Assembly: GCF_000374565.1 (NCBI RefSeq)
Contig: NZ_KB894693.1
Location: 1-64,000, forward strand
DNA length: 64,000 nucleotides
Direction: 5' to 3'
Source of the DNA: Siminovitchia fordii DSM 16014 = CIP 108821
GTDB lineage: Bacteria; Bacillota; Bacilli; Bacillales; Bacillaceae_C
Program-made: the position numbers and the translations under genes
Notes under the pieces: generated by a model
What the model was told of the DNA's origin: nothing
The model's input: only the letters and a program-made list of their open reading frames with translations
Database searches by the model: none
Part shown: positions 14,221-32,100 of the stretch, in pieces
How the letters are laid out: the number at the start of each line of letters is the position of its first letter
Numbering within the stretch: position 1 is the stretch's first letter

Positions 14221-14232
14221 TGACACCTCCTT

Positions 14233-14252
14233 ATATGAATACATTATCATAT
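14233..14252 (-). promoter_or_regulatory. CzrA-like operator upstream of the czrA remnant
   Basis: ATATGAATACATTATCATAT is an imperfect palindrome with ATATGA half-sites, 13 bases before the former czrA start. It resembles the site at 13932-13951 and would have served autorepression. Confidence 0.5.
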
Positions 14253-14404
14253 AGACATATTTAATTCAAGCGGCATTACTATATAAAGTAATATCCCTTC
14301 TCGTTCAATAAATGACGTACTCGATAAAAACAGTATGGATCATTCGTTTTGGAAGACTTTTCGCACATTTAAAAAGATACATATATCTTGTGCAATAATT
14401 TCTC

Positions 14405-14435
14405 TTGAACCTCTGGTTACGTGAGGTTTTATAAT
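14405..14435 (+). promoter_or_regulatory. MerR-type promoter with 19-bp spacer and dyad
   Basis: -35 TTGAAC (14405-14410) and a perfect -10 TATAAT (14430-14435) are separated by 19 bases. A dyad, AACCTC (14408-14413) with GAGGTT (14423-14428), lies across the spacer. This is the architecture MerR proteins act on; the MerR gene itself starts 32 bases downstream, so it probably activates its own transcription. Confidence 0.8.
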
Positions 14436-14466
14436 GAACATATACTTTTTTATGGGAGGAATTTTG

Positions 14467-15234: not shown

Positions 15235-15538
15235 GGTACGCCATAAAAAAACAGGAATATCATTATGAGAATGAAAGTTGATTCATACGGTTCATTAAAG
15301 TTATGTTTGTTTTTCAAAAAAATGAACATATAGAGGAATCACACTTAAATTCTGGACAATTAACAGCAATTACTTCATTCAAAGCAAGTGCGGTCAGCAA
15401 AGTTAACTGTAACCTGAAAATAGAAAAATACTGTTTGGTCTTATAGCAATTGATGATGTTTCTCTGCGGGTTTGCTAAAATAACAGCAAATAATTTCACT
15501 AAGTTATATGCTTGGTTGGGAGAAACTTTTTAAGGAGA
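15235..15538. other. Intergenic region without recognisable features
   Basis: A+T-rich sequence between the MerR gene and a small hypothetical gene. A 61-codon frame on the minus strand (15314-15499) has no good start context and no family resemblance. I see no promoter or terminator I can defend. Confidence 0.4.
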
Positions 15539-15742
15539 GTGATCCGAATCAATCGAAGACAGGTAATAGATCAAATGAATCAATGTACACCCGATGAATT
15601 GGCAGAATGGCGGAAACATGCTGTGAAGTGTCTGAACTATTTTCTAAAGTACCGAAATGATTATGAGATTGAAGAATGCAATTTTGTGATATCCCAGATT
15701 GATCAAAGAATAAGTGGGATAACAGATATGGAAAAAACATAG
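15539..15742 (+). CDS. Small hypothetical protein
   Basis: A short frame of about 67 codons from GTG 15539 (or 56 codons from ATG 15575), ending in QIDQRISGITDMEKT. It is charged and probably alpha-helical (TPDELAEWRKHAVKCLNYFLKYRNDYEIEECNFV), without signal peptide or membrane segment. AAGGAG lies directly before the GTG, which is unusually close. A terminator follows 10 bases after the stop, which supports a real transcription unit. I do not recognise the family. Confidence 0.45.
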   Translation: MIRINRRQVIDQMNQCTPDELAEWRKHAVKCLNYFLKYRNDYEIEECNFVISQIDQRISGITDMEKT

Positions 15743-15752
15743 AGTCATGAAA

Positions 15753-15794
15753 AAGGCTATACAGAAATCAATTTTCATGATTCTGTACAGCCTT
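15753..15794. terminator. Bidirectional terminator between convergent genes
   Basis: AAGGCT-A-TACAGAAATCA pairs with TGATTCTGTA-C-AGCCTT across a short loop. It lies between the small gene at 15742 and the convergent SDR gene ending at 15799 and can serve both. Confidence 0.75.
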
Positions 15795-15798
15795 CCGT

Positions 15799-16497
15799 TT
15801 ATACCGGCCTCACGGTAATTTCATTGACATTCACATAATCAGGTTGAGTGACTGCATACATAACGGCTTTCGCAATGTCTTCGGCCTTAAGTTTTTTACG
15901 GTCGGAGGCACTCTTGCTCAACCGGGTGTCCACCATTCCCGGAGAAATATTCGTAACACGGACTCCGGTTCGTGCAAGCTCTTTTTCAAGGCCTGTTGAA
16001 ATGGCACGTACTGCAAATTTGGTTGCACTGTATACTGTGCTCGTTTTCGTTACCTCCAGCCCTGAAACTGAGGCAATATTGACGATATGACCGCTTGACC
16101 GCTCAAGCATGGAGGGCAAGACCGCATTGATGCCATACAGCACTCCTTTGATATTCACATCAATCATACTCTCCCACTCTTCCACTTTTCCAGATTGGAC
16201 CGCAGCTGACAGCATCTGCCCTGCATTATTGACAAAAACATCAATGCTTCCGAAGGCTTCTTCCACTTTTTTCACCAGGTTCTCAACATCTTCCCTGTTG
16301 GATATATCCGTCCGGACGGCAAGGGCTTTTCCATTTCCTTGACTGCTTATAACCTGTTCCACTTCTTTCAATTTATCGATCCGGCGAGCTGCAAGAACAA
16401 CATTTGCCCCCTCACCGGACAATACTTTAGCGATTGCCGCCCCAATGCCGCTGCTGGCACCTGTAATAATGGCCGTTTTCCCTTGTAATGACTTCAT
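15799..16497 (-). CDS. Short-chain dehydrogenase/reductase
   Basis: A 232-residue classical SDR with an NAD(P)-binding Rossmann fold: TGASSGIGAAIA glycine motif near residue 12, NNAG near 90, Ser of VNIASVSG and the catalytic YSATK near 155. The RRIDKLKEVE after strand two suggests NADP(H) preference. The family is close to YdfG/YwfD-type oxidoreductases acting on hydroxy acids, alcohols or carbonyls; the substrate cannot be told from sequence. Start at 16495-16497 behind GGGGGAA. It stands alone, ending at a shared terminator. Confidence 0.85.
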   Translation of the reverse strand: MKSLQGKTAIITGASSGIGAAIAKVLSGEGANVVLAARRIDKLKEVEQVISSQGNGKALAVRTDISNREDVENLVKKVEEAFGSIDVFVNNAGQMLSAAVQSGKVEEWESMIDVNIKGVLYGINAVLPSMLERSSGHIVNIASVSGLEVTKTSTVYSATKFAVRAISTGLEKELARTGVRVTNISPGMVDTRLSKSASDRKKLKAEDIAKAVMYAVTQPDYVNVNEITVRPV

Positions 16498-16904
16498 TTC
16501 GATTCCCCCTCAACTATACTTTTACTGTGAGTGTACCACTTGTGTTGGCTGTAATAAAGAAATGAAAACAGTACCCGAGAAACCAAAATGACTTTATTTT
16601 GCTTTCGATGAATTTTGGTCTTAACATTCCGGCATTAAAAATAGAAAATATCATAGCAAAGTAAAACCATGATGAAGTATGTATATCCATCTTCAAATGC
16701 CTTTACGACTTCTACGTATACTAATACATAAAAACACGAGGCAAATAGCGAGCTTATTCCCATATTCCTTCTTACAAATCAAAAAGAAATATGTTCCTTA
16801 AAGTTTTTTTAGTTTGATAGAAGTAAAGATTCAGGCATGATACTATGATTATTGAAGCATGTCCATTTTTCCATCACAAACTACGTAAAGTCGAGGGACA
16901 CCAA
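16498..16904. other. Divergent intergenic region
   Basis: About 400 A+T-rich bases between the divergent SDR and EamA genes. It should hold both promoters, but I cannot single out convincing -35/-10 pairs, repeats or a riboswitch. No credible gene. Confidence 0.4.
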
Positions 16905-17822
16905 ATGAGTTCGAATGATTCAGCGTTGGCCTACTCAAGAGTCACCGGAATCTCCATGGTATTGACCGGCGCAGCCTTGTGGGGAGTTTCCGGAACTGTT
17001 GCCCAATATCTTTTTCATCAACATGGTTTTACTGCGGAGTGGCTTGTTGTCATACGTCTGCTTCTGTCAGGTGTTTTATTGCTGGGCTTTGCTTATCAAA
17101 AGGAAGGACACCGTGTTTGGGCTGTTTGGAAGAGTAAAAAAGAGGCATTCAGCCTTGTGGCGTTCAGTATCCTTGGCATGCTCGCCGTCCAATATACATA
17201 CTTTGCCGCAATTACACATAGCAACGCAGCAACGGCAACCATCCTCCAGTATTTGGGGCCTGTCATTATCACGATCTATGTGGCGGTCAAAGGGAAGCGG
17301 CTTCCGACAGGAAGAGAGATTTCAGCTGTTGTTTTGGCTGTTATCGGAACATTTCTTCTTGTTACACAAGGGAACATTAGCAGCTTGTCCATATCCGGCT
17401 GGGCATTATTTTGGGGATTAAGCTCTGCGGTCGCACTGGCTTTTTATACACTTCAGCCCAACAATCTTTTGAAAAAATGGGGATCCATGATTATTGTGGG
17501 TTGGGGCATGCTAGTCGGAGGAATTGGTTTCAGTTTTGTGCACCCGCCCTGGAGGCTAGTCGGTCAATGGTCGCCTTCGGCCTTGATGGCTGTAGTGTTT
17601 ATCGTCATTTTCGGGACTCTGATCGCCTTTTACTGCTATCTTGAAAGCCTGAAATACCTCAGTGCTTCGGAAACTAGCCTGCTGGCATCCATTGAGCCTT
17701 TATCTGCGACATTTACTTCAGTCGTCTGGTTGAATATAAGCTTCGGCCTGCCGGAATGGTCAGGTACATTTTGCATTATTGCCACGGTAGTGCTCTTATC
17801 ATTGAGCAGATCTAAAAACTAA
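16905..17822 (+). CDS. EamA/DMT-superfamily transporter
   Basis: A 305-residue membrane protein with ten predicted helices in two EamA repeats. The first begins GAALWGVSGTVAQYLF; the second begins WALFWGLSSAVALAFYTL and contains ESLKYLSASETSLLASIEPL, the typical end of the second repeat. These drug/metabolite transporters export amino acids or other metabolites. Start at ATG 16905 with GAGGGA eight bases upstream; the frame opens earlier at 16845 without a site. Base composition is richer in G+C than the surrounding decayed region. Confidence 0.85.
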   Translation: MSSNDSALAYSRVTGISMVLTGAALWGVSGTVAQYLFHQHGFTAEWLVVIRLLLSGVLLLGFAYQKEGHRVWAVWKSKKEAFSLVAFSILGMLAVQYTYFAAITHSNAATATILQYLGPVIITIYVAVKGKRLPTGREISAVVLAVIGTFLLVTQGNISSLSISGWALFWGLSSAVALAFYTLQPNNLLKKWGSMIIVGWGMLVGGIGFSFVHPPWRLVGQWSPSALMAVVFIVIFGTLIAFYCYLESLKYLSASETSLLASIEPLSATFTSVVWLNISFGLPEWSGTFCIIATVVLLSLSRSKN

Positions 17823-17895
17823 AAAGAGCATGACAAGGCCTCTGCCTTTTCAAATCCACGCCCTCCTTCATATTTTATATAATAAGGGGGTGTTT

Positions 17896-18189
17896 GTGTT
17901 GGCTCGAATACATCAACGAAAACGAGGGCTTTGCCTATTTCCCGGGTATAAATGGTGTGGTCCGGGATGCAGCGGTCCTGAAGGCCCCATCAATGATGTG
18001 GATGCATGCTGCATGAGACACGACATTTGTCTTAAACGCGGAATTCATCCCTGCCTATGTGATGAAAGGTTCATTGAATGTCTACTTACAAAGTGTGATT
18101 CGAACACTTCCAAGGGTAGGATTGCAACAATTATGTATATTTTCATGCGAATCAAGGCCTCTTCATTTTGTTGGGGCTACAGACGATAG
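17896..18189 (+). CDS. Small phospholipase A2-like protein
   Basis: A cysteine-rich protein of about 97 residues. It contains the calcium-loop pattern WCGPGCSGPEGP followed by the catalytic helix DACCMRHDIC, the CCxxHD signature of phospholipase A2 proteins, including the bacterial and parvovirus VP1-type group. Six further cysteines follow (PCLCDE, ECLLTKC). No signal peptide is visible. A ribosome site AAGGGGG at 17884 fits a start at GTG 17896 or TTG 17899; the longer frame from 17830 is unlikely. It would hydrolyse the sn-2 ester of phospholipids if active. Such short stand-alone versions occur in Bacillus, role unknown. Confidence 0.7.
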   Translation: MLARIHQRKRGLCLFPGYKWCGPGCSGPEGPINDVDACCMRHDICLKRGIHPCLCDERFIECLLTKCDSNTSKGRIATIMYIFMRIKASSFCWGYRR

Positions 18190-18221
18190 GAAAAATACTA
18201 AAGCCGGTCTCGTATTATGAT

Positions 18222-18325
18222 ATGTTCCCCTTTAAGTAGACAGGTAAAAAAGTAAAACCTGGATGCTTAAAGGGGAACATTTTTAAGTCTAAACGAAGCT
18301 ATACCATTGAATATAAGGTAAAAGG
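18222..18325 (+). mobile_element. Possible IS3-family left-end remnant with 15-bp inverted repeat
   Basis: ATGTTCCCCTTTAAG (18222-18236) and its exact complement (18266-18280) flank 29 bases that themselves contain ACAGGT/ACCTGG. Just after, the frame reads KSKRSYTIEYKVKG, like the beginning of an IS3-type OrfA. The segment CCCTTTAAGTAGACAG resembles the end of the IS3 remnant at 27418-27443. I infer a broken end of such an element; no transposase continues. Confidence 0.45.
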
Positions 18326-18474
18326 TATTAACAGCTTATCAACGCCAGCAACATAAGCAAACGCAAAATACGAACACCTTTACGTTACAGCTTTAGCCCC
18401 ACTGGCTTTCCTTTGGGTGCTTGTTTGAGTTTTCTTCGACTTAGCTTGTTTTCCAGCTTTGGTTCCTGCTTTAA

Positions 18475-18837
18475 CCTGTCACAAAGCAAAACTATTACAT
18501 GGTGCAGGGGAAATGAAGGAATACGACCAGTTAGGAATGGGAAACTATGTTTTGGCCGGACACCGAATGAAGAAAAAAGGATTGTTATTTTATGATATAG
18601 TTCGTCTAAATAACGGTGATAAGGTATACGTTACGGATAAAAAAAAGATTTATGAATATCAAGTAGCACAAACAGATCATTAAAGAAAATGAAACAACAA
18701 TCATGGAGGAAAATGGTAAGGACGAAATCACCTTAATAACTTGCGATATACCAAGTGAACCTGAAAACAGAGTAGCCGTAAGGGGAGATCTTATTAATTC
18801 TTTTCCATTCAATGAGGATTTTAAAAATAGAGAATAG
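18475..18837 (+). pseudogene. Sortase remnant, 5'-truncated and frameshifted
   Basis: The first frame encodes HGAGEMKEYDQLGMGNYVLAGH and DIVRLNNGDKVYVTD, the middle of a class A-type sortase including the catalytic histidine in AGH. After a frameshift near 18670 the next frame continues with IMEENGKDEITLITCD, containing the TLxTC active-site cysteine, then RVAVRGDLI with the conserved arginine. The N-terminal membrane anchor is absent; the sequence before 18475 is unrelated. Sortases attach LPxTG-type proteins to the cell wall. All three catalytic residues remain recognisable, so the gene broke fairly recently. Confidence 0.75.
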
Positions 18838-19002
18838 AAGATTTTAGAATGTTTAATTACTTAAAAAGTGTATCAAATGAAATGAAAAAAGTTTCTTGGT
18901 TAGGTAAAAAAGTTAAATTTTAGGAGAAGCCTATATAAAGAGTTCATCATTAAAACATTTGGATAGACCTATTTCGAATCCATGAGAGATTTTTTCAAAA
19001 AT

Positions 19003-19036
19003 AGTAGCACAAGCCATGATTTTGGCCTGTGCTACT
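19003..19036 (-). terminator. Terminator of the HyuA/DUF917 operon
   Basis: GTAGCACA with GCC pairs with GGC and TGTGCTAC around an 8-base loop. On the minus strand it is followed by TATTTTTG. It lies 15 bases past the HyuA stop and probably ends the whole operon. Confidence 0.8.
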
Positions 19037-19051
19037 AATGTTTGTATATAG

Positions 19052-20614
19052 CTACCTTGCTAGTTCCCCTGCTGCCTTGACTCTTACTCGTGTCGCATTT
19101 CCAGGTAGATAGGCAAGTGGAACATCTTCAATATCCACAATGTCGCATGTATTGGGATCAGCTCCTGCCTCAACGGCTTCATTGACCGCCATTTGTTTTG
19201 CCAGCTCCAGAGTTTTTTCCCGGCCAAGCTCATCCAAAGAGAACACTCTTTCTACTTGACCGCTTACTTGAGCAATGGCAGAACCAATGGCGTTGGCAAC
19301 CCCATGGTTTTTCGGGCGAATGACTTCTGAGGCTCCTTCCAATGTTGCGGGTACAAGTATACTTCCACCGCCGACCAAAATGACTGGAACAGGATCCGCA
19401 CTGGTTTTCATGCGGTCCACCGCCAATTCCACCATGGAAGTCATTTCCGCATAAATGCTTTCCAGTAATGTCCGATCCAAATGGCGGACCTTTTCAGGAT
19501 CTCCAATTTCAGCTTTTCCAAGAGCCACGACGACATCTGTGGTCGTCAACGTATCACCGCCGAAAACGAGTGCCTTCTCCGTTAAACGGTAACCTACGCT
19601 GTCCGGTCCAATCGAAAATTCTCCATTCTCTCGAATTCGGACAATCGTTCCTCCACCCAGTCCGACAGAAACCAAATCTGGCATACGAAAGTTTGTCCGA
19701 GCACCTCCAATTTCAACAGCGAGAGACGATTCTCTAGGAAAAGAGCTCACGAGGACTCCGACGTCAGTAGTCGTTCCTCCCACATCGACAACAATCGCAT
19801 CGTCATGACCGGATAAATAAGATGCACCGCGTAAACTGTTCGTCGGGCCACAGGCAACAGTCAAGATCGGATATTTTAATGCATAGTCCACAGACATAAG
19901 GGTTCCGTCATTTTGACCTAAAAATACCCGGGCATCATGGATGCCTTCTTCCCTTAACGCATTGACAAACCCGTTAATTGTTGTTTTGGCTACATTCACG
20001 ACCGAAGCATTTAAAATCGTTGCATTTTCCCTTTCAAGAAGGCCGACGCTGCCGATCTCACATGAAAGTGATACGGGTAATTCTTCTCCCATTACTTCTT
20101 GCATAATTTCAGCTGCCCGTTCCTCATGACTTCGTGAAACTGGTGAGAACACAGACGTGATGGCAATGGAATCAACCTGCCCCTTCACTTCTTCAGCAAT
20201 GCGATACAGTTCTTGTTCATCAAGCGGCATAATTTCCCGCCCGTCAAATTCATGTCCGCCTTGAACAATATAAACATATTTTCCTAGCTTTTCCCGTAAA
20301 TCATCTGGCACTCCAATAAGCGGTTTGACCGCAAGCGTTGCGGGAGCACCTAAACGGATAACTGCGATTGAATTTAATCTTTTCCTTTCAACAATAGCAT
20401 TCGTTGCATGAGTAGTCCCAAGCATGGCATACTTAATGTCAGAAAGTGGAACATTAGAAGAAGTGATGACTTCCTTCATTGCCTTATATATTCCCGTACT
20501 GACGTCTTCCGTTGTCGGTGTTTTCGTTTCTGCTATGACATTGAAATCCTCATCCAAAATAACTGCATCCGTATTCGTCCCGCCAACATCAATTCCTATT
20601 CGATAAATGCCCAT
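19052..20614 (-). CDS. Hydantoinase/oxoprolinase A-type ATPase (HyuA-like)
   Basis: A 520-residue protein of the HyuA/oxoprolinase family. The N-terminal domain starts YRIGIDVGGTNTDAVIL, and a second phosphate-binding motif, VVDVGGTTTDVGVL, follows near residue 280; both belong to an actin/hexokinase-like ATPase fold. Related enzymes use ATP to open the cyclic amide of hydantoins or 5-oxoproline, usually with a HyuB partner. No HyuB is present; the partner is the DUF917 protein encoded immediately upstream, whose stop TAA overlaps this ATG by one base. It is the last gene of the probable DUF1177-to-HyuA operon. Confidence 0.85.
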   Translation of the reverse strand: MGIYRIGIDVGGTNTDAVILDEDFNVIAETKTPTTEDVSTGIYKAMKEVITSSNVPLSDIKYAMLGTTHATNAIVERKRLNSIAVIRLGAPATLAVKPLIGVPDDLREKLGKYVYIVQGGHEFDGREIMPLDEQELYRIAEEVKGQVDSIAITSVFSPVSRSHEERAAEIMQEVMGEELPVSLSCEIGSVGLLERENATILNASVVNVAKTTINGFVNALREEGIHDARVFLGQNDGTLMSVDYALKYPILTVACGPTNSLRGASYLSGHDDAIVVDVGGTTTDVGVLVSSFPRESSLAVEIGGARTNFRMPDLVSVGLGGGTIVRIRENGEFSIGPDSVGYRLTEKALVFGGDTLTTTDVVVALGKAEIGDPEKVRHLDRTLLESIYAEMTSMVELAVDRMKTSADPVPVILVGGGSILVPATLEGASEVIRPKNHGVANAIGSAIAQVSGQVERVFSLDELGREKTLELAKQMAVNEAVEAGADPNTCDIVDIEDVPLAYLPGNATRVRVKAAGELAR

Positions 20615-21708
20615 TATTGTCCAGCTCCTCCTACCATTAACTTCTCAACGGGGACATAATCCACATCGTAACCGAAATAAGATGGGCCGCATGTATCAAT
20701 ACCTTTTTCCGTTCTCCATTTCGGATCACACGGTATTCCAATGACAACGCAGCGAGCCCCATATCTTAATCCTTCCGTAGTGATTGGAAGTCCAGTCTCC
20801 GCATCCAGCACCGCAATTAAATCAGGTGTTACACATAACAGGCGATCTTTCGTTTTTGCGATCAAATGCTCATTTTGGAACCGAAGCTCAAGAGTTTCAC
20901 CTTTATAATCCGCCAATCCTTCGATGGCAGCCATTCCCCTTGTAAAACCAGTCTCCGTTTTACGATTAATATCTGTTACTTTTCCCTGAAACAGTTCAAA
21001 TCCCTTTGTCAGTTCGAGCACTTTCTCAATTGGATCATAGCCCCCAGCTTTGGCAAGGCGGATAGAGCGGCCTATCTCTTCTTCCAACTGCAAAATATTA
21101 TGGATACCGCTTTCCTTTAAATTTTTTCCTCTCATAGGATAAATGGCCATCATAACAGACCCGCCCATTTGAATCGTAGCGTTTCTTGCGATTCTTTCGG
21201 CCCATAAATTATCAATCGTATTCAGCAATGAGGCGTTTCCTTTTTCATCAGCAATCACCATAGGGGTTGCTGAAACTCCATCCAAATAAAAGGTTGTCAT
21301 TTGTAATTCCGGAAAAGCTCGCCCCATTCCATCAACGTCTACTACTGGCAATTTCAGTGTTGCCGCAAGTGCCAAAGGAAGCATGGAATTAATGCCCCCG
21401 GCTTCTATAGGAATGGTAGCAACAATTTTTTCCCCAAGATAAGATTCAAGCGTTTTAAACGTTGCCAATGCCTCTGTACCGCTTGGAGCTTTTTCCACCA
21501 TCACCGTCGGCGCTCCCATCATGCCCGTCGGCACAATTAAATCATCATCGCCAATTTCGTCTATGGATAGAAGTTTAATCGGACCATTTTCTTCAACTGC
21601 CTGTAAAGCCATCAACTTTCCAATATGAGGGTCACCTCCCCCTCCAGTTCCAAGCAACGCCGCACCAACAGCAATATCCTCAATCTCTTCTTTTCCAATA
21701 AACCTCAT
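20614..21708 (-). CDS. DUF917 protein
   Basis: A 364-residue protein typical of DUF917: opening IAVGAALLGTGGGGDPHIG, then DDDLIVPTGMMGAPTVMVEKAPSG and ETGLPITTEGLRYGARCVVIG near the C-terminus. DUF917 occurs as a separate protein or fused to hydantoinase A-type domains, so it is probably the second subunit of a hydantoinase-like enzyme. Its biochemical role is not established. Start at 21706-21708 behind GAGGG. Its stop overlaps the hyuA-like start, which indicates translational coupling. It lies 100 bases downstream of the permease gene. Confidence 0.85.
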   Translation of the reverse strand: MRFIGKEEIEDIAVGAALLGTGGGGDPHIGKLMALQAVEENGPIKLLSIDEIGDDDLIVPTGMMGAPTVMVEKAPSGTEALATFKTLESYLGEKIVATIPIEAGGINSMLPLALAATLKLPVVDVDGMGRAFPELQMTTFYLDGVSATPMVIADEKGNASLLNTIDNLWAERIARNATIQMGGSVMMAIYPMRGKNLKESGIHNILQLEEEIGRSIRLAKAGGYDPIEKVLELTKGFELFQGKVTDINRKTETGFTRGMAAIEGLADYKGETLELRFQNEHLIAKTKDRLLCVTPDLIAVLDAETGLPITTEGLRYGARCVVIGIPCDPKWRTEKGIDTCGPSYFGYDVDYVPVEKLMVGGAGQ

Positions 21709-21810
21709 ATGTTGATCCCTCTTTTTCAGTTTTTTCAGACTCCCCTGGATAGGATAGAAGTTGTCTTATCCTTTGTGAAGTTAAAAGGATGGACTGGCCA
21801 AATTCTCAAA

Positions 21811-23139
21811 TTATTTATAGGTTTTCACTTCACCATACGTTACTTTTTTACCGCGGTGGACTATAGCATTTAGCAGCCAGTACAGGAAGCCGCCTGCAAC
21901 AAGTGAGTTGACAGAAGGTATCCCCCAGTGAATGGTCAAACCAATGGCAATTGATGCAATCCAAGCAATCAGTGTGATTGGATTCCATGCCTCATACGTT
22001 TCCGGCAATACACCTTTTTCACGGGATTCTTTTAATTCTTTCGCATAGCGTTTAACAATAAAGTACTCCACTGTCATAATGCCTCCTACAGGCGGCAGTG
22101 CTACACCCAGCAATACAAGGAAGCTTTCGAACGCTCCTAAAATTCCTAGCACAGAAAATAGTGTACCAATCAAACCGAGAATAATTGTAACAAGCGTCCG
22201 GTTTACTCGCTTCCCAAAGCCGAGATCAATCAAATTAACGACACCGAGAGAAGAAGAGTATAAGTTCCAGTCGTTAATCTTCAATGTAGCCGTAATTAAT
22301 ATGATCGTTCCAATAATACCGCTTGTACCCATAACGATTGAGATGACATCGGATGTCTTTGCTGCATGGGCTAGAAGAACACCTACCAAACCAATAATAT
22401 ATTCCCCGAATGTAATGCCAATGACTGTTTGCTTAATCACGTCACCAACAGAACGGTTAAAACGGCTCATATCAGGTGTAATGATGGCACCAGCGATAAA
22501 TCCACCCGCAACCATACTCGCACCAACAGCCAGTGGAATTTCAGGACCCGGCACCGGCAAAGCAATCAGCTCTCCGAATGAAAACTGTGTCAATACGTTG
22601 CTGATTGAATAAAAAACTACAAGTAAGAAAAGTGGAACTGTTACATATGCAGTAAATCCCAAGGACAAAATGCCAAACAATACAATAAGTGTCACAGACA
22701 CCCCTGTAACAATCGACCAAAGCCAGACTGGACCGCCTACAATTTGATGGATTCCGTTGGCAAATACCTCATTTTGAATTCCAAACCATCCGATCATAGA
22801 GATAGCGATCACTAGACTCAACAAGAAAGAACCCAGTTTTCCAAAGCCTGCCCATCTAACTAATAAAGTGGTACTCAACCCTTCTCTCATACCGGCAATT
22901 CCCACAAAAATGGACACAACTTCCAAAATGACCGCTCCTAGGGTAATAGCCCAAAAAGCAGTCCAAAAATCCATACCGTAACCAAGCGCAGCACCCAGTA
23001 AAAATTGGGAGAGAGCAGAGATTTGTCCAAATCGCATCGTAGCAATGCCAAACCAGTGCTTTCTCTCACTTTTTGGAACCCGGGATAATGCATAATCATC
23101 ATATTTTTCCCCAATTGTCACTTCCTCTTCCTTTTTCAC
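21811..23139 (-). CDS. NCS1-family nucleobase/hydantoin-type permease
   Basis: A membrane transporter of about 442 residues in the NCS1 family (cytosine, allantoin, hydantoin permeases), with about twelve helices. MRFGQISALSQFLLGAALGYG and GGFIAGAIITPDMSRFNR are typical segments. It should import the substrate of the pathway with sodium or protons. I choose the GTG at 23137-23139, preceded by AAGGGTGG; a longer frame to 23241 reads through an IS-like hairpin (RGNVSSLSSIKIWAQIRQG) and is unlikely to be translated. The short N-terminal part is charged (KKEEEVTIGEKYDDYALSRVP). Confidence 0.85.
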   Translation of the reverse strand: MKKEEEVTIGEKYDDYALSRVPKSERKHWFGIATMRFGQISALSQFLLGAALGYGMDFWTAFWAITLGAVILEVVSIFVGIAGMREGLSTTLLVRWAGFGKLGSFLLSLVIAISMIGWFGIQNEVFANGIHQIVGGPVWLWSIVTGVSVTLIVLFGILSLGFTAYVTVPLFLLVVFYSISNVLTQFSFGELIALPVPGPEIPLAVGASMVAGGFIAGAIITPDMSRFNRSVGDVIKQTVIGITFGEYIIGLVGVLLAHAAKTSDVISIVMGTSGIIGTIILITATLKINDWNLYSSSLGVVNLIDLGFGKRVNRTLVTIILGLIGTLFSVLGILGAFESFLVLLGVALPPVGGIMTVEYFIVKRYAKELKESREKGVLPETYEAWNPITLIAWIASIAIGLTIHWGIPSVNSLVAGGFLYWLLNAIVHRGKKVTYGEVKTYK

Positions 23140-23197
23140 GCCTTTCTCCACCCTTCTTTTATCAAATGCGCCTTGGCGTATTTGCGCCCAGATTTTT

Positions 23198-23347
23198 ATC
23201 GAGCTTAAGCTCGATACATTTCCTCTGAAAACCCGTGGCATCCGCCAGAGGCTTTAACTTCATTCAGCCGGGGTTTGCCCCCTACTAAGTAGACCCATTC
23301 ATCTCACCACTTACAGATGTGGGAGACTTCTGCTGAATGAAGTTAAA
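23198..23347 (-). mobile_element. Structured repeat resembling an IS200/IS605 right end, inside the operon
   Basis: Between the nitrilase stop and the permease start lies a highly folded stretch. Features: a perfect 16-bp inverted repeat (TTTAACTTCATTCAGC 23253-23268; complement 23332-23347), GGGG/CCCC hairpin at 23270-23281, a CATCT/AGATG hairpin inside CCCA/TGGG near 23294-23323, CCTCTG/CAGAGG, and the perfect palindrome ATCGAGCTTAAGCTCGAT (23198-23215). This layout fits the non-coding end of IS200/IS605-type elements, which also forms the omega RNA of TnpB. No transposase is present. The right arm contains the nitrilase stop codon. An operon-internal regulatory RNA is the alternative. Confidence 0.5.
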
Positions 23348-24149
23348 TGTAAATATCAGGCTTTCTATCCCTCAAATAAGAAATTTGGGTTCTAAATGTG
23401 TTAATTTCATCCAAATCAATTGTCACTACCTCTACAGTTTCCTCACCATCAGGAAGCTGCGCAATCACTTGTCCTCTTGGGTTACACACTTTACTCCCAC
23501 CAAATAAATACAAATCCCCTTCGTGCCCGAAACGGTTTACGCCGATCGTGAAAAAAATATTCTCCAATGCGCGTTGAGGGACATTTAATTCCCACATATC
23601 TTTATCTTGGACTCTCCATGCTGAGGGCATAAACACAAACTCGGCCCCATTCAGGCATAAAGAGCGACAAGCTTCGGGAAAACCAATATCATAACAAATG
23701 GCGATTCCAAATTTTCCATATTTTGTGTCGAAAATGGGGTAATCAGAGCCTTCTTTAAAATACATCCTTTCTTTTGCCCATAAATGTGTCTTGGCAAAGC
23801 TTCCAAGTAAATCTCCTTCATCATCAAAAACAAGAGCTGAATTATACAAAATCCCTTCCAAATCCCGCTTTTCTCCAAAAGGCGCTACCACATATACTTT
23901 ATTTTCTCGAGCTGCTTCCGCCATCTTTTCAACAGTATAGTCATAGTATTGAAGTGCCAATAAACTTACATCATCACCGAGCAGATCTAAATTATAGCCT
24001 GTGGAAAAAAGCTCAGGAAGACAAACAATATAGGCTCCCTTTTCAGCTGCCAGCTTGATTTTCTCAGCTGCTTTTTTTACATTGTACTCAACGTCACCGA
24101 GCTTACTATCAAACTGGATAATACCGATATTGACTCTCCTGCTGTTCAC
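23343..24149 (-). CDS. Carbon-nitrogen hydrolase (nitrilase superfamily)
   Basis: A 268-residue amidohydrolase of the nitrilase fold. The catalytic triad is visible: Glu in LPELFSTGYN (residue about 47), Lys in FAKTHLW (about 119) and Cys in GIAICYDIGFPE (about 152). Family members cleave amides, N-carbamoyl compounds or nitriles. The length fits omega-amidase, beta-ureidopropionase-like and N-carbamoyl amidase groups. Start GTG at 24147-24149 with AAGGAG. It begins 15 bases after DUF1177 and ends within the structured repeat. In context it probably hydrolyses the linear product formed when a ring is opened, but that is inference. Confidence 0.85.
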   Translation of the reverse strand: MNSRRVNIGIIQFDSKLGDVEYNVKKAAEKIKLAAEKGAYIVCLPELFSTGYNLDLLGDDVSLLALQYYDYTVEKMAEAARENKVYVVAPFGEKRDLEGILYNSALVFDDEGDLLGSFAKTHLWAKERMYFKEGSDYPIFDTKYGKFGIAICYDIGFPEACRSLCLNGAEFVFMPSAWRVQDKDMWELNVPQRALENIFFTIGVNRFGHEGDLYLFGGSKVCNPRGQVIAQLPDGEETVEVVTIDLDEINTFRTQISYLRDRKPDIYI

Positions 24150-24164
24150 TTTTCAGGACTCCTT

Positions 24165-25115
24165 TCAAACTTGCTCGGGCTGTCTGCCAAAGGTCTGCAG
24201 TTTTTTCATTGAACCATACAATTTTTTTAGCTTTGCAAACTCATCCTTATTATAAAATTCGCATTTTCCGCTGGTATATTCTTTGGCTACCTCGATGGCG
24301 AAGCGGACTGCCTCGGCGATATCAACCTCACGACTCGCTCCTGTTCCGCATCCCGGCACCACTGATTTAGCCGTTATAGCCACTCCGACCACCGGGACAT
24401 CCGTTGCCACAGAGGGTTGTAAAATACTGTTTAAATGGTACAGTCCGTTCCCATATGGAGTGATATCCTGCATTGTCACGCCAAAGGTTACCGGAAAATC
24501 CCCCGTCGTCATTTCCATGATTCGTAAAAGATCATCACTAAAACGTAATATATAACCTTCCTTTACAGTAGGAGAAATGGCTATCCCCAAATGGTTTACA
24601 ATTTTATTTCCTTTGGTAGTATCAATCGAAAGAATGGCTTCCATTTCCTCAAGCACTTCATGTCGATTCATCTCCATCATGTCAACGGGTGAGCCCATAA
24701 AATCAACCGGTTCATGCGGCTCAATTGGAGCATCAGGACAAATATGTGTCGTTATATACACATCCCCAGGAAGACGGTCCCCATTCGAAGCCATATTCAC
24801 TAATTTGAATGCAACAGTAATGGCAGCGATTGCACCATCCCCGTCGGAAACGGATCCGATTCTGAATGGACGTGCTCCAAGTCCCCCGAGTCTCCCAACA
24901 ATCCCCAGTGTCGGCGCCGACCCTCCATCACTTTTTCCATTCGTTCCTTTGATTAAAATTTTGATAAAATCAGTCGAAGCCCCAGTCGCTCCGACAACGG
25001 TTTCATAAGATGATTCACAATGTGGCAAACCTTTAAAAATATTGACAACCTTTTTGCCATTTATATAAGCTTCGTCCAACAGCTCCATTATTTCCATCGT
25101 ATATTTCAAAGACAC
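24165..25115 (-). CDS. DUF1177 protein
   Basis: A 316-residue protein matching DUF1177: TGASTDFIKILIKGTNG, TLGIVGRLGGLGARPFRIG, SVSDGDGAIAA, GDVYITTHICPDAP, PVDFMGSPVDMMEMN, ILSIDTTKGNKIVNH and DITPYGNGLYHLNSILQP are highly conserved-looking. His and Asp clusters (THICPDAPIEPHEP) suggest a metal site, which would suit a hydrolase or isomerase, but no activity is established to my knowledge. Start GTG at 25113-25115. It is the first gene of the operon, 54 bases behind a promoter. DUF1177 genes are often near hydantoinase-like and DUF917 genes, which the context here repeats. Confidence 0.8.
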   Translation of the reverse strand: MSLKYTMEIMELLDEAYINGKKVVNIFKGLPHCESSYETVVGATGASTDFIKILIKGTNGKSDGGSAPTLGIVGRLGGLGARPFRIGSVSDGDGAIAAITVAFKLVNMASNGDRLPGDVYITTHICPDAPIEPHEPVDFMGSPVDMMEMNRHEVLEEMEAILSIDTTKGNKIVNHLGIAISPTVKEGYILRFSDDLLRIMEMTTGDFPVTFGVTMQDITPYGNGLYHLNSILQPSVATDVPVVGVAITAKSVVPGCGTGASREVDIAEAVRFAIEVAKEYTSGKCEFYNKDEFAKLKKLYGSMKKLQTFGRQPEQV

Positions 25116-25168
25116 CAGACATCACCATCCATCTAAATATTCTGTCTATTTATGTGGTACTTAAAAAA

Positions 25169-25197
25169 ATTATAAATTTTACGGATGGTGCTGTACA
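25169..25197 (-). promoter_or_regulatory. Sigma-A-type promoter of the DUF1177 operon
   Basis: On the minus strand, TGTACA (25192-25197, four of six matches to TTGACA) and a perfect TATAAT (25169-25174) are 17 bases apart. It is 54 bases upstream of the DUF1177 start. Upstream, GTGGGAAAA near 25207 and TTTTCCTTCCCAC near 25225-25237 form an imperfect dyad that could bind the regulator encoded next door. Confidence 0.65.
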
Positions 25198-25251
25198 TGT
25201 CCATAGTGGGAAAACATACACACATTTTCCTTCCCACCATGCACAAAAAAA

Positions 25252-25278
25252 GATCAACAAGCCTATTGCTCGTTGACC
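25252..25278 (-). terminator. Terminator overlapping the end of the PucR-type gene
   Basis: GATCAACAAGC (25252-25262) pairs with GCTCGTTGACC (25268-25278), and on the minus strand a run of seven T follows. The stop codon of the regulator lies inside the hairpin, so the regulator is transcribed separately from the operon downstream. Confidence 0.8.
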
Positions 25279-26837
25279 CTTTTTATTTTAAGACAGAATT
25301 GCAGTATAAATATATGCTCGGAGTTATCCAAATCCATGTTCAAAAGCGATTTTATTTTTAACAGCCGATTTGTCATCGTTCTCCGATGAATATATAATTT
25401 TTCAGCTGCCCTGGACGCATTTCCATTTTCTTGTAGATACATGATCAGCGTTTCCATCAGCTCCGGATCCCCCTCGCTTTTAAGCGGTCCTAGTATTTGT
25501 TGAGCGTATTCCCGTGCTGAGGAATCCTGGCTTAATTTGATAAAAAATTCGTAAATGCCCAGTTGATAATAGGAATATATTTTATTGTCGGGATAATATT
25601 CACGACCAAAATCCATCATATTTGTAACGGCCTTCACTTTTGCATCCAGCTCGTTAAAATGGTAGAAAACCGGGCTGATTCCTACATAAGTGTCAGGCAC
25701 AGGGAAATGGTCAGCAATGTTGGATACCTCTTCTACTATCTCCTCCATCGACCGTAATTCCGAGAGAATCAGGAGAACATACATTTCTTCTTTTTCAAAA
25801 ATAAAGGATTGCTCCACATTTGGTATCTGGTCAAGCAAGTCCAACCATTTTTTCTGAAGCATACAATCATAATCAACAACCCTGGAGGATCCTAAAGGGA
25901 GTTTTTGATTTTCCTTAACATAAAGAATTACTTTTGCTTTTAGGTTGGAATGATTTGAAATGGCTCTTTTGAACTTATCCACTCGCGACATGCAATGCTT
26001 TTGCATTTCAACCAACTCAGACATAACTATCTCGTAGAGTTTATGCTGAATCGCTTCGATAGATTTTTTACTCAATGAATTCATCAAAGCCTGGTTATGA
26101 AATGGTAAATGAATAAAAGCAAATATTTCCTGCCTTGTATAGAGTGGAATGATCAATCGGCTTAACTTCCCCGGCAAATATATGTAGAAATGGTCATCCC
26201 TCAAGATACGATCTTTCCATCTTCTTAAGTTGTCTTGATACTCAGAATGAGTTGGCGGGGAAAAAACCATGCCCGTTTTTCTCCATGGATCACGATAAAA
26301 CCGGCCACTTGAATATAAAAGAAGTCCTTGCACATCTTCTATATAAACAGATCCGCCATTTAGGATCGCAGACAGATACTCCAACGCTTCCTCTACACTA
26401 TTAAATATCATGTCCTTAAATGAATGAAGAGCATTGTTATCTGCAGAGGCATCTCCTTCCTGGCGCAGTAGCCCATAAAGTGGTGTAAGCAGATCAATGT
26501 AAGCGACCCATTTGGGAATTGTAATGATTGGAAAATCATGTCTCTCAGCTAACTCGATCAATTCATTCGACAGTTTTTCAACGAATCTTCCGACTTTAAT
26601 CACTATTCCAGCAGCCTTTTTCTCAATTAAACCCGAGATAATATCCAACCACCTCTCCGGGTTATCCTTTACTGAGTAAAAATTTGTAATAACAAGGAGC
26701 CCTTCTGTAGCCCACTCCTCTACTTCAGGAACTTCCATCACTTCGATAAAGCGAACTTCTTGCTCTAATCCCTGGTGCCCTGCTGATAAGCTGCCATCTA
26801 ATGCTTGAACAACTTCCAATACATCCCATACTTTCAC
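25263..26837 (-). CDS. PucR-family transcriptional regulator
   Basis: A regulator of 524 residues. The N-terminal half is the PucR ligand-sensing domain (VWDVLEVVQALDGSLSAGHQGL, EEWATEGLLVITNFYSV). The C-terminal 60 residues carry the PucR-type helix-turn-helix with ETLIMYLQENGNASRAAEKL followed by YIHRRTMTNRLLKIKSLL. PucR activates purine catabolism in B. subtilis; homologues control various nitrogen-compound pathways. I set the start at GTG 26835-26837, seven bases after AAAGGAG; an in-frame ATG at 26855 is weaker. It lies just upstream of the DUF1177 operon on the same strand and is its obvious regulator. Confidence 0.85.
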   Translation of the reverse strand: MKVWDVLEVVQALDGSLSAGHQGLEQEVRFIEVMEVPEVEEWATEGLLVITNFYSVKDNPERWLDIISGLIEKKAAGIVIKVGRFVEKLSNELIELAERHDFPIITIPKWVAYIDLLTPLYGLLRQEGDASADNNALHSFKDMIFNSVEEALEYLSAILNGGSVYIEDVQGLLLYSSGRFYRDPWRKTGMVFSPPTHSEYQDNLRRWKDRILRDDHFYIYLPGKLSRLIIPLYTRQEIFAFIHLPFHNQALMNSLSKKSIEAIQHKLYEIVMSELVEMQKHCMSRVDKFKRAISNHSNLKAKVILYVKENQKLPLGSSRVVDYDCMLQKKWLDLLDQIPNVEQSFIFEKEEMYVLLILSELRSMEEIVEEVSNIADHFPVPDTYVGISPVFYHFNELDAKVKAVTNMMDFGREYYPDNKIYSYYQLGIYEFFIKLSQDSSAREYAQQILGPLKSEGDPELMETLIMYLQENGNASRAAEKLYIHRRTMTNRLLKIKSLLNMDLDNSEHIFILQFCLKIKRVNEQ

Positions 26838-27034
26838 CGCAATTCTCCTTTTCATTACTGTTTCCACCATTATACAAAATCTAAAAGAAAGCCGTTTCAT
26901 TTACACGACTGAAGTCATGAGGATTCTCAGTTGAATAATAAAATAAATCACTTTCGATCACAAGTTCATCATATCAATGGGGAGCAGCTGTTGGTTTTAT
27001 TTGTCCACTATTGTTTATCCAAAGATAAAGACTA

Positions 27035-27443
27035 CCTGAAACAGCTGATTACTACGGAGTATCTTATCAGCAGGTTTATCAATGGGTAAGAAAGTACGAA
27101 GCCAGCGGAATTGAAGCGCTGCAGGATAGACGCGGGAGAATTAAGACCGAAGAGGAATTAACAGCAGAAGAAAAAATAATGACGCAAAGTATGTCCAAGG
27201 TGGGATGGTGTATTGACAATGGCCCTATGGAGTCCTTTTGGGGAACACTGAAGGGTGAAAATACTTTTTAAACAAGTATGGAAGCTTTGAAGAGGTGCAC
27301 AGGCAATTGATGAGTACATCCACTTCTATAATCATGAACGTCTCAGAAAAGATTTAACGGCCTTAGCCCCATGATATACAGGGCTAAAGCCGCTTAGTTA
27401 CCTTTTTATTATTTCCGCTGCCTACTTGACAAAGGGTAGTTCA
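27035..27443 (+). mobile_element. IS3-family remnant with orfA-orfB internal deletion
   Basis: The frame reads ADYYGVSYQQVYQWVRKYE, ASGIEALQDRRGR, typical of the IS3 OrfA helix-turn-helix, and passes directly in frame into MSKVGWCIDNGPMESFWGTLK, the C-terminal catalytic part of OrfB. Everything between is deleted. After a stop, another frame gives AIDEYIHFYNHERLRKDLTALAP, the end of OrfB. An end-like sequence, CTGCCTACTTGACAAAGGG, follows at 27418-27436. The element is dead. It separates the catabolic island from the tyrS core region. Confidence 0.8.
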
Positions 27444-27481
27444 TTATCGAAACCGGCTTTTTTCCTGTTAAGGAAACTATA

Positions 27482-28765
<1,284 letters not shown>

Positions 28766-28772
28766 TTAAAAT

Positions 28773-29003
28773 AAAAAACGTCCCTTCGTAAAAACGAAGG
28801 GACGACTTGTTTATCGCGTTACCACCCAACTTGGGAAAATTGATTTCCCCACTCTGAAAAAATAACGGTTCTACACCGTTTACCGCTACTTACAATTCAC
28901 GGCAAAAGCTCCCGGAAGTAATTCGCCGAATGCTGTTTGTACCGGTTTTCACCAACCACCGGCTCTCTTGTTGACAGGGACAGCCCGACTACTTAGTCCG
29001 TTC
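28773..29003 (-). promoter_or_regulatory. T-box leader of tyrS (tyrosine specifier)
   Basis: The minus strand has the conserved T-box bases GGGTGGTAACGCG (28815-28827) followed by a terminator, CGTCCCTTCGT/ACGAAGGGACG (28779-28804) with T6. Upstream, stem I can be seen with ACCGGT and GAACGG elements, and TAC at 28939-28941 is the likely specifier codon for tyrosine. Uncharged tRNA-Tyr binding would favour the antiterminator and allow tyrS expression. The upper boundary is approximate. Confidence 0.85.
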
Positions 29004-29087
29004 CTTGCTTTGATATTAGATTATGAAAAGTATTGTAACCATTTTAAATGGGATTGTCAAATTCCTCCGAAAAAGGGAACTTCCTTA

Positions 29088-29096
29088 TGCTATAAT
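29088..29096 (+). promoter_or_regulatory. Extended -10 promoter of the penicillin-binding protein gene
   Basis: TGCTATAAT (29088-29096) is a perfect extended -10 element, 30 bases upstream of the ATG. No good -35 box lies 17 bases ahead, which extended -10 promoters tolerate. Confidence 0.6.
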
Positions 29097-29126
29097 AGTG
29101 ATGATTTCCAGGAGGTATTTTTTATT

Positions 29127-32100
29127 ATGTATAATTTTTTTAATAAATTGCGTGAACGTGCCAAGCAATTCTCGGACGGATTGGATAACAAGGAACTTAG
29201 CAAGAAAGCCAGGATCACCTATGGAGTTACATGGAATATCATTCTGTTAACGGTGATTCTGTTTTTCCTTGGCGGTGTTTTTGCGGGAGGAGTGGGAGCA
29301 GGTTATTTTGCCTCTCTTGTAAAAAACGAGGAAGTCCGGCCGGCCGCCAGCATGAAAAACGATATTTTTCAATATGAGGAAACATCCAAGCTTTATTTTG
29401 CCGATAATATCTATCTTGGAAAACTCCAGTCGGACATTGACAGAGAGAAGGTCAAGATTAAGGACGTATCTGATTATTTGAAGAAAGCCATCATAGCAAC
29501 AGAGGATGAATATTTTTATGAGCATGACGGCGTCGTTCCAAAAGCTTTGATGAGGGCTGTTTATCAGGAATTGACAAACTCGGCCGTTCAATCAGGCGGA
29601 AGTACGTTAACACAACAATTGATCAAGAATCAGATTTTAACGAATGAAGTATCGTTTGACCGTAAAGCAAAAGAAATTTTGCTTGCCTTACGTATTGAAA
29701 AATTACTTGAAAAAGATGAAATTTTAGAAGCGTATTTGAATGTAACGACATTCGGACGAAACTCATCCGGACAAAACGTCGGCGGGGTCCAGGCGGCTGC
29801 AAGAGGCATTTTTGGCGTTGATGCGAAAGAACTCAACTTACCCCAATCAGCCTTTATTGCCGGTTTGCCACAGAGCCCTTTCATGTATACCCCATTTGCA
29901 CAGGGAGGCGGGGTCAAAGAGAAGAGCCTGCTTGAGCCCGGCTTGAACCGGATGAAAACCGTTCTGTTTAGGATGTACAGTGAAGATTATATTACGAAAG
30001 AGGAATATGACAAGGCATTAAAATATGATATTGTGGCCGATTTCACCAAACCTCAGCCAAGACCATTCGAAAAATATCCTTGGCTTACTACAGAAATTGA
30101 GGAGCGTGGAATTGAGGTCTTGACGGAGGTGCTTGCCAAAAAAGACGGCTACAGCAAAAAAGACCTTGAGAAAAATGGTGGAAGACTGCAAGAAAAATAT
30201 GAAAAACTCGCAAGGCGGGATATCAGGCAAAACGGCTATCATATCCACTCTACCATCAATAAAGAAATATACGACAAGTTTCAAAAAATTAAAGATGAAT
30301 ATCAAAATTACGGCTATACGAAAGTCAGCCAGGTAAAGAATAAAGAAACTGGAAAAATGGAAGAGAAAATCGAGCCTGTTCAAATCGGCGCTATTCTTAT
30401 TGAAAATAAAACCGGAAAGATTTTAAGTTTTGTTGGTGGGCGTGATTATAAGTTGGAAGCGCAGAATCATGCCACCCAGGCGAAGCGGCAAAATGGTTCA
30501 ACGATGAAACCGCTGCTTGTCTATGCCCCTGCGATGGAAATGGGTCTGAGTGCTCCAGGTGCCGTCGTGGCAGATATTCCAATTTCAGTCGGCGGGAAAG
30601 CGTTCAGAAACTATAGCGGCCGATATTATGGACTTGTCTCATCCCGGGAAGCGTTGGCCAAATCACATAACGCTTCGGCAATCTATACGTATTTGAAAAC
30701 AATCGATAAAAAGCCATATAAATATTTGGAAAAAATGGGAATAACCTCTTTGACAGAAACCGATAAAACTACTTATGCAGCCGCGCTTGGTGGTGTTCAA
30801 AATGGTATCTCTGTTGAGGAAAACACGAATGCTTTTACCACATTCGCCAATGGCGGGAAATTTGTCGATGCTTACATGATTGATAAAATTACGGATGCTA
30901 ATGGAAAAGTCGTTTACGAACATAAAGTAAAACCAGTAGACGTCTTCAGCCCTCAAACAGCTTATTTAATGACCGACATGATGAGAGACGTGTTCAGGTA
31001 TGGGACAGCTTCCGCTGTGCCAGGAATGCTGAAGTTTTCTTCCGACTGGGCAGGAAAAACCGGTACGACAAACGGTCCCAACGATTCATGGCTGATCGGC
31101 TCAAATCCAAAAGTAACTTTCGGTACATGGATTGGTTACGATGAACCGGCACCTCTTTCCAGTGATGGAAGCGAGAGCATGCGGAATTATGGGATCTGGG
31201 CAAGGCTGATCAATGGCGCTTATGATGTTGCTCCAGATCTGATCAAAACGGATGACAGGTTCAAAATGCCTGGAGGCATTGTCAGTCGGTCATACTGCGC
31301 GATATCCGGACTGCTTCCGTCAAAAGCTTGTTCGAGTCTCGGCCTTGTCAAATCAGATATATATAACGCAAAGTATGTTCCGTCAAGAGTGGATGACAGC
31401 CTGGGTAATGGACGCTACGTGACAGCGGGAGGCAGGAAATATATGGCCCTTCCGAATACGCCTGGAGAATTCACTAAACCAGGAGGAATGCTAAGTCCTG
31501 AATTCATCAAGCGGATTTCCCTTGGAAGATCAATCGATCCTTCCTATCTGATCCCGCCAAACGACGAACGGTGGAAGAGTCTTCTTGCTGCAGGAGCCGT
31601 CCTTAAGGATGATGGAAAAGCACCAGCAGCCGTAAACGCATCTGTTTCCGGCGGTACCATCTCATGGAGCCCTTCTCCGAGCCATGACGTAGTCGGTTAT
31701 CGCGTGTATTCCGGATCCGGCAAGAAAATTGCTTCTGTCATGTCAGATGGGGCCTTGTCTCAAAAGGTCGGAAGCGGCTCATATTATGTCGTAGCAGTAG
31801 ATATAGCCGGTCGGGAATCAGCCCCTTCCAATAATGTTGGTGCAAAAAAAGAAGAGGAAAAAGAGAAAAAAGAGGTAAAAGCGACTGAAATATCCTCTGC
31901 TGCCGTCCAGAAAGAAAAAGAAAAGAAGGAACAGGCTTTAAAAGAAAAAACGGAAAAAGAAAATGCCGCAGCAGAGAAAAAGAAACAAGAAGAGCAAAGA
32001 AAGCAAGAAGAGCAAAAGAAGAAGCAAGAGGAAGAACAGAAGAAAAAACTAGAGGAAGAAAAGAAACGACAGGAAGAGCAACAGAAAAAGCAAGAAGAGG

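Follow-up and report, generated by a model that had tools for sequence, protein, structure and literature searches.

Gene content and control signals of the locus

The first 64,000 nucleotides of contig NZ_KB894693.1 of Siminovitchia fordii DSM 16014 (hereafter the window) contain six minus-strand genes at 19052–26900, which encode a PucR-type regulator, a DUF1177 protein, a nitrilase-fold amidase, an NCS1 permease, an S-Me-THD-like protein and a short HyuA. S-Me-THD, or S-Me-THD-like, is the present Pfam name of DUF917. The open reading frame (ORF) list and a Pfam scan, in which all six families scored above the cut-offs (PucR and HTH_30, DUF1177, CN_hydrolase, Transp_cyt_pur, S-Me-THD_N and S-Me-THD_C, Hydant_A_N and Hydantoinase_A), place all six genes on the minus strand and confirm the families given in a first-pass annotation of this DNA, at or near the positions given there. 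The same six genes are found in the same order, and 90–99% identical, in Bacillus norwichensis (L035), Bacillus sp. HF117_J1_D (L036) and Siminovitchia terrae (L037); PucR is 90–97% identical across these three sister genomes. The features of the locus are listed below in the direction of transcription.

25263–26900, minus strand: PucR-type transcriptional regulator, 545 residues if translation starts at the first ATG, though the true start may lie further in (ORF; Pfam PucR and HTH_30)
25249–25282, minus strand: terminator-like hairpin closing the PucR gene, fold −17.8 kcal/mol
25207–25236, no strand assigned: imperfect inverted repeat TGGGAA...TTTTCCCA, directly upstream of the −35 hexamer; candidate regulator site
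25169–25197, minus strand: candidate sigma-A-type promoter, TGTACA-17-TATAAT (motif scan and sister-genome alignment)
24165–25115, minus strand: DUF1177 protein, 316 residues (Pfam PF06675, 442 bits against a cut-off of 25)
23343–24149, minus strand: nitrilase-superfamily amidase, 268 residues (CN_hydrolase; E46, K120, C152)
23156–23345, minus strand: inserted dispersed repeat of about 185 bp, TTAACTTCATTCAGC...GGCGCATTTGAT, absent at this place from sister genomes
21811–23139, minus strand: NCS1 permease, CodB-like, 442 residues from the GTG favoured by the sister genomes; the ORF runs on to 23241
20614–21708, minus strand: S-Me-THD-like protein (formerly DUF917), HyuA-paired subtype, with both Pfam domains
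19052–20614, minus strand: short HyuA, 520 residues, ATPase motifs DVGGTNTD, DVGGTTTD and LVGGGS
19002–19037, minus strand: intrinsic terminator, 15-pair stem followed by a T-run

The DUF1177 and nitrilase genes are separated by 15 bp and the NCS1 and S-Me-THD genes by 102 bp, and the S-Me-THD stop and HyuA start share 1 bp in the window and in L035–L037 alike. The promoter originally proposed ahead of the DUF1177 gene is present as a motif, but the 18 promoter-type matches in the region do not exceed the shuffle mean of 18.2 and are at chance level. Support for the site at 25197–25169 comes from its −10 hexamer TATAAT and the surrounding bases, which are kept in the three sister genomes; the first hexamer reads TATACA there. 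The inverted repeat between PucR and the promoter was recognized by eye in all four aligned genomes and is a candidate operator. A terminator scan returned 13 candidates compared with 7.1 in shuffles, and the hairpin at 19037–19002, a strong terminator, has the most stem pairs, in agreement with the terminator assigned to the operon end. The hairpin at the end of PucR (25282–25249) consists of a single 14-pair stem with Ts after it and is retained in the sister genomes; the proposal that PucR has its own terminator thus stands, although this hairpin is not among the candidates of the region-wide scan.

The annotation required revision at two places. The operon is interrupted, the inserted repeat sitting between the nitrilase and NCS1 genes. 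The permease had been started at 23241; because the ORF from that position opens inside the repeat and the sister genomes point to the GTG at 23139, translation probably begins at the latter.

The NCS1–S-Me-THD–HyuA cassette and the gene contexts of DUF1177

The last three genes of the operon were sampled independently of DUF1177, in 20 S-Me-THD-centred loci (phylum-wide, picked among high-scoring places) and in 40 HyuA-centred loci of the class (mostly the top of a longer list). The first set contains HyuA in 20/20 and NCS1 in 18/20, and neither DUF1177 nor the nitrilase in any locus (0/20 each). In the second set S-Me-THD is present in 39 loci, NCS1 in 38, DUF1177 in four, the nitrilase in two and AroM in one; the locus counted as lacking S-Me-THD (L181, by tblastn) does contain one by ORF comparison. 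NCS1, S-Me-THD and short HyuA form a conserved and widespread unit, and this co-travel, together with the overlap of the S-Me-THD and HyuA genes, supports the uptake and ring-opening logic first read from the operon. Of the 60 loci in the two sets, 12 also hold an Asp/Glu/hydantoin racemase cluster and two hold an M19 dipeptidase cluster. The ATPase motifs of HyuA are intact, its phosphate and adenosine motifs lying at positions 9, 277 and 413. Doubled cassettes occur in L148–L156, L158–L160 and L167, with a second divergent S-Me-THD–HyuA pair (mostly 29–39% identical) a few kilobases away, often with a sigma-54 activator; other loci of the class sample carry S-Me-THD flanking HyuA on both sides.

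Neither the ORF list nor the Pfam scan contains a HyuB in the operon, as had been noted, and the three HyuB genes elsewhere in the genome each lie directly behind another HyuA-like ORF. The cassette is thereby defined as one with a hydantoinase-family ATPase without its usual partner. It shares the HyuA ATPase domain and phosphate motifs with the ATP-dependent HyuA/HyuB hydantoinases, oxoprolinases, caprolactamase and acetophenone carboxylase, and differs from these systems in the length of HyuA (520 residues, whereas the NCBIfam model of caprolactamase alpha spans 689 positions), in the missing HyuB and in a neighbour, S-Me-THD, of another fold. The S-Me-THD protein scores 204 and 243 bits for its N and C domains, above the cut-off. 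Its predicted model (predicted local distance difference test score, pLDDT, 87.7) matched only two chains of PDB entry 2o3i in Foldseek at E ≤0.001, with a template-modelling (TM) score of 0.78, and S-Me-THD as a structural HyuB is ruled out on this ground. The suggestion that DUF917 replaces HyuB, presumably in a physical complex, thus fits the gene pairing, but the substitution would be non-homologous because the folds are unrelated.

A further possibility is that S-Me-THD desulfurizes a thiohydantoin or ergothioneine-type compound, after which HyuA would open the ring. The window protein shares both Pfam domains and the fold with the S-methyl thiohydantoin and thiohydantoin desulfurases, and the family models match; it reaches only 117 of 450 and 94 of 440 bits, respectively, in the two NCBIfam equivalogs, far below both cut-offs, and the operon proteins include no ergothionase or urocanate-hydratase-like family (Pfam). 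We regard desulfurization as very improbable here. The term uncharacterized, which had been applied to the island as a whole, fits S-Me-THD less well: the family now carries NCBIfam thiohydantoin desulfurase names, although the window protein stays below their cut-offs. Two subtypes of S-Me-THD can be distinguished by their match to S-Me-THD_N, one adjacent to DUF1177 (∼65–87 bits) and the other paired with HyuA as in the window (206 bits), with 23–28% identity between them. The DUF1177-linked subtype is closer to the NCBIfam thiohydantoin desulfurase (281 of 440 bits for L043, compared with 94 for the window protein).

The nearest solved structure to the NCS1 permease is CodB (PDB entry 7qoa; E = 1.5e-30, compared with 1e-7 for Mhp1), and its best NCBIfam model is cytosine permease, below the cut-off. 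These matches, and the family name of PucR, are consistent with salvage of nucleobase nitrogen, in which the permease would import a pyrimidine or related base that is converted elsewhere to a dihydro- or hydantoin ring and then opened by the cassette. The operon proteins include no deaminase or dihydropyrimidine dehydrogenase family (Pfam), and DUF1177 would be left unexplained; we consider this route unlikely. Classic hydantoin utilization clusters combine a hydantoinase, a carbamoylase, a racemase and Mhp1. The window shares with them an NCS1 permease, ring opening and a nitrilase-fold amidase that possibly acts as a carbamoylase, and differs in having no amidohydrolase-type hydantoinase (Pfam) and no racemase, a CodB-like rather than Mhp1-like permease and an ATPase HyuA instead.

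DUF1177 is usually found in other company. Its neighbours were counted up to 10 kb away on either strand, with many loci cut by contig ends, in the 80 top-ranking relatives out of at least 575; all 80 are at least 62% identical and lean to Bacilli and close kin. AroM is present in 77 of these loci, and in 74 it lies on the DUF1177 strand no more than 400 nt away. Peptide transporters, counted as OPT, DppB or SBP5, likewise occur in 77 loci, peptidases (M29-like, M20 or S51) in 63, an Asp/Glu racemase in 48 and a divergent S-Me-THD in 43 (either type in 48). PF19585, the CDOB family of cyclodipeptide oxidases (CDOs), was detected by tblastn in eight, several with nitroreductase-family genes. 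A broader sample comprises 40 phylum loci, 51–67% identical, from 45 other DUF1177-positive genomes (G204, G274, G313, G433 and G447 being omitted as fragments, short contigs or of low rank). Here AroM was counted in 26 loci, peptide transporters in 25, peptidases in 21 and racemases in 24, and HyuA and NCS1 in 0/40; some of its loci lie among housekeeping genes (L242 and L248) and one (L255) inside a branched-chain-amino-acid-type ABC operon. By hand count, S-Me-THD is present in 24 of 46 DUF1177-positive genomes compared with 40 of 352 others.

Unlike those 77 loci, the DUF1177 gene of the window has no adjoining AroM. The only loci of the 80 without AroM are L035–L037; none of the six genus genomes searched has AroM, but in G007 it is present beside DUF1177. 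The peptide transporter counted for L035–L037 is a family-5 binding protein upstream of PucR (plus DppB in L036). All three carry family-5 binding proteins and an acyl-CoA:6-APA acyltransferase-family protein at that place, with Dpp-type transporter genes in L035 and L036; queries with the family-5 binding protein and DppB, the only two used, gave no match in the window at 9001–42000.

A search of 5.39 million open papers gave one paper with a single occurrence of DUF1177, so that the label uncharacterized is fair for this family. Its usual neighbours match a published gene list: CDO clusters without a cyclodipeptide synthase are described as holding hydantoin racemases, DUF917, AroM, OPT, EamA, ABC peptide transporters and peptidases, in a section that does not name DUF1177 (PMC11055893). 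This correspondence ties DUF1177 to cyclodipeptide-oxidase clusters and is consistent with catabolism of cyclic dipeptides or modified peptides, in which the home clusters of DUF1177 would import peptides or diketopiperazines, racemize and open them and leave the remainder to peptidases, with the window operon as a shortened version. The frequencies of peptide transporter, AroM, racemase and divergent S-Me-THD and the PF19585 genes argue for this route; against it, 15 of the 40 broader loci show no peptide transporter in the search used, HyuA and NCS1 are missing from all 40, and the window operon has NCS1 in place of OPT or Dpp and lacks AroM, racemase and CDO (Pfam scan), retaining only S-Me-THD of the gene list in PMC11055893. 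As an explanation of the window operon we regard it as doubtful, if the least so of the alternatives considered here.

Loci with DUF1177 near the cassette are those of the window clade and L042/L043, L044, L050, L051, L072, L170, L171, L177 and L180. L042 and L043 are 91–95% identical in DNA over the cluster and count as one event; the contig label of L043 (Roseburia sp. 1XD42-34) is probably wrong given this identity to Virgibacillus proomii L042. In a 72-row HyuA tree, whose rows were partly gathered via DUF1177 so that the label counts are enriched, the presence of DUF1177 beside the cassette requires eight changes, at least six of them forced by supported branches. DUF1177 has joined the cassette repeatedly and the six-gene island is composite. 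The five genes as one conserved unit are ruled out by the occurrence of DUF1177 in 0/20 and 4/40 cassette loci, and a complete conserved five-gene route is unsupported in view of these counts and of the absence of HyuA and NCS1 from the broader DUF1177 loci. The co-occurrence of DUF1177 with DUF917, HyuA and NCS1 across genomes, proposed as a check, recurs more than once.

In this composite the nitrilase apparently goes with DUF1177 rather than with the cassette, because near relatives (50–53% identical) occur in two DUF1177–Dpp–racemase loci without the cassette (L235 and L238). At ≥45% identity it is present in 6/9 DUF1177 loci with HyuA and 1/71 without (p = 2e-6), or 3/6 and 1/71 when L035–L037 are removed (p = 0.001). 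Among HyuA loci it is present in 2/4 with DUF1177 and in 0/36 of those lacking it (p = 0.008); of these two nitrilases, one shares only 29% identity and lies ∼5.6 kb from the cassette. All three are Fisher tests that ignore kinship. The catalytic Glu-Lys-Cys motifs (E46, K120 and C152) are present, and the best NCBIfam names all fall below the cut-off, leaving carbamoylase as a candidate role.

Fold of DUF1177 and the proposed route

The AlphaFold2 model of DUF1177 (pLDDT 84.6; predicted TM score, pTM, 0.89) has DapE, M17 aminopeptidase and glutaminyl cyclase as its top Foldseek matches, with a best E of 4e-8, and a zinc-exopeptidase-like fold is predicted. In alignment numbering, which leaves out the first residue, H123, H133, D164, D216, H226, D264 and E274 are present in 40/40 broader relatives and D90 and D92 in all 39 covering rows; D90, D92, H123, H133, D164, H226 and E274 are family residues also found in the window protein. 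By eye, the stretch SDxDGAxAA...GDV..TTHICP sits where M20 proteins have SDMK...PDEE, with different residues. The structure prediction that had been suggested as a means of finding a metal site thus gave an exopeptidase-like fold with conserved D90, D92, H123, D164 and H226, but the canonical M20 motif was not seen by eye.

Residue 261 is Arg in the window and in L035–L037 and His in the other 69/69 rows of the alignment; in the 40 broader relatives it is His in 35 and Gln in five. The window protein would thus act with Arg in place of His at 261 and without the AroM that normally adjoins DUF1177. Arg261 and the lack of AroM in all six genus genomes could mean that DUF1177 of the window clade has lost catalysis and persists as a passenger or scaffold. 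The ORF is intact, however, and 91–95% identical between species, the seven family residues listed above are retained, and the occurrence of Gln261 suggests that the position may be non-essential, which makes loss of catalysis rather improbable.

We propose, with a probability of about 0.5, that the operon serves under PucR control to salvage a small cyclic amide of the hydantoin, cyclic ureide or cyclic-dipeptide type. NCS1 would import the ring compound, and short HyuA and S-Me-THD, from their overlapping genes, would work as a pair: HyuA would activate a carbonyl of the ring at the expense of ATP, and S-Me-THD would supply the water for ring opening. The carbamoyl or amide nitrogen released in this way would next be removed by the nitrilase-superfamily enzyme. 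DUF1177, recruited from peptide-utilization clusters, may cut the remaining amide bond; that it is a true enzyme in this recurring combination is plausible. The analysis shows the genes, the ATPase and nitrilase motifs, the conservation of the cassette and the contexts of DUF1177, and it predicts the folds. We infer from these the HyuA–S-Me-THD complex, the substrate and the sequence of reactions, as well as what DUF1177 does and that PucR is the controlling regulator.

Several points weigh against this proposal. No result of the analysis names the substrate, the CodB-like permease may indicate a nucleobase, no racemase is found among the operon proteins (Pfam), and the S-Me-THD protein reaches neither desulfurase cut-off. 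DUF1177 is not needed for the core reaction, since 36/40 and 20/20 loci of the cassette do without it. Its fold matches have TM scores on the query (TMq) of only ∼0.5, and M20-type HxD...EE metal ligands are not apparent by eye. No sequence relationship was detected to PDB chains or, in a weak test with shallow profiles, to the M20 or M29 proteins encoded near DUF1177; the match to zinc exopeptidases (DapE/M20, M17 and glutaminyl cyclase) is one of predicted fold. In the Arg261 clade its activity may be lost or changed.

More speculatively, and with clearly less confidence than in the salvage route, DUF1177 could be an unrecognized family of metal-dependent hydrolases central to a widespread route for cyclic or blocked peptides, acting with AroM, a racemase, S-Me-THD and a peptide transporter. 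In several Bacilli it would have been spliced onto an ATP-driven ring-opening pair of S-Me-THD and short HyuA, with S-Me-THD replacing HyuB, and in the window clade the enzyme would have been retuned by loss of the near-universal His and of AroM. For DUF1177 the analysis in any event supplies a probable fold class, a set of conserved neighbours and a role open to testing.

Block boundaries, the inserted repeat and neighbouring features

DUF1177 is present in four of the six genomes of the genus, the window included, and missing from G003 and G005. Over the stretch compared (14001–30000), DNA similarity between the window and L036 extends from ∼18473 to 27001, the insert excepted, with nothing beyond. 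The six-gene block probably moved as one unit, because this similarity stops at both edges and a decayed insertion-sequence remnant followed by tyrS lies past the PucR end in the window. The remnant (∼26950–27450, plus strand) is IS3-like by eye, has frame breaks and separates tyrS from PucR, bordering the shared block. A foreign origin by GC content was dropped as a criterion, the values (42.7% for the island, 35.2% and 42.0% for the flanks) not being telling.

The inserted repeat is absent at this place from L035–L037. It has 15 matches in its own genome, two of them partial, and occurs in three of the five other genus genomes, with 41 (G001), 64 (G002) and 42 (G004) matches, a few of them short, when 40 candidates were scored in each; no match was found in G003 or G005. 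First-look candidates numbered 131, 602 and 330 in G001, G002 and G004, so that copy numbers in sister species are perhaps in the hundreds. The ends are sharp in the window copy and in 20 fetched copies, the flanks of which are unrelated except for the pair L207/L208. In L035 a copy lies instead in the PucR–DUF1177 spacer (L035 copies at 9574–9737 and 2633–2805), a different spacer from that of the window copy, so that the repeat has entered this operon on two separate occasions. No transposase was recognized by eye among long ORFs in ten own-genome regions, the ORFs not having been searched against families, and no relatives were found among plasmids. The repeat has no Rfam match at the gathering threshold, and only 1/50 predicted pairs is altered on both sides, which gives no support for an RNA structure. 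In kind it is similar to the bcr repeats described for the Bacillus cereus group (PMC6542083), a resemblance by description that implies no kinship.

Two further features flank the block. A 119-residue ORF at 17830–18189 (plus strand) has weak phospholipase A2-like Pfam matches (E ∼2e-5 to 8e-4). A T-box leader at 28795–29014 (minus strand; 143.6 bits), the sole Rfam match of the window, precedes an ORF named by eye as tyrosyl-tRNA synthetase-like.

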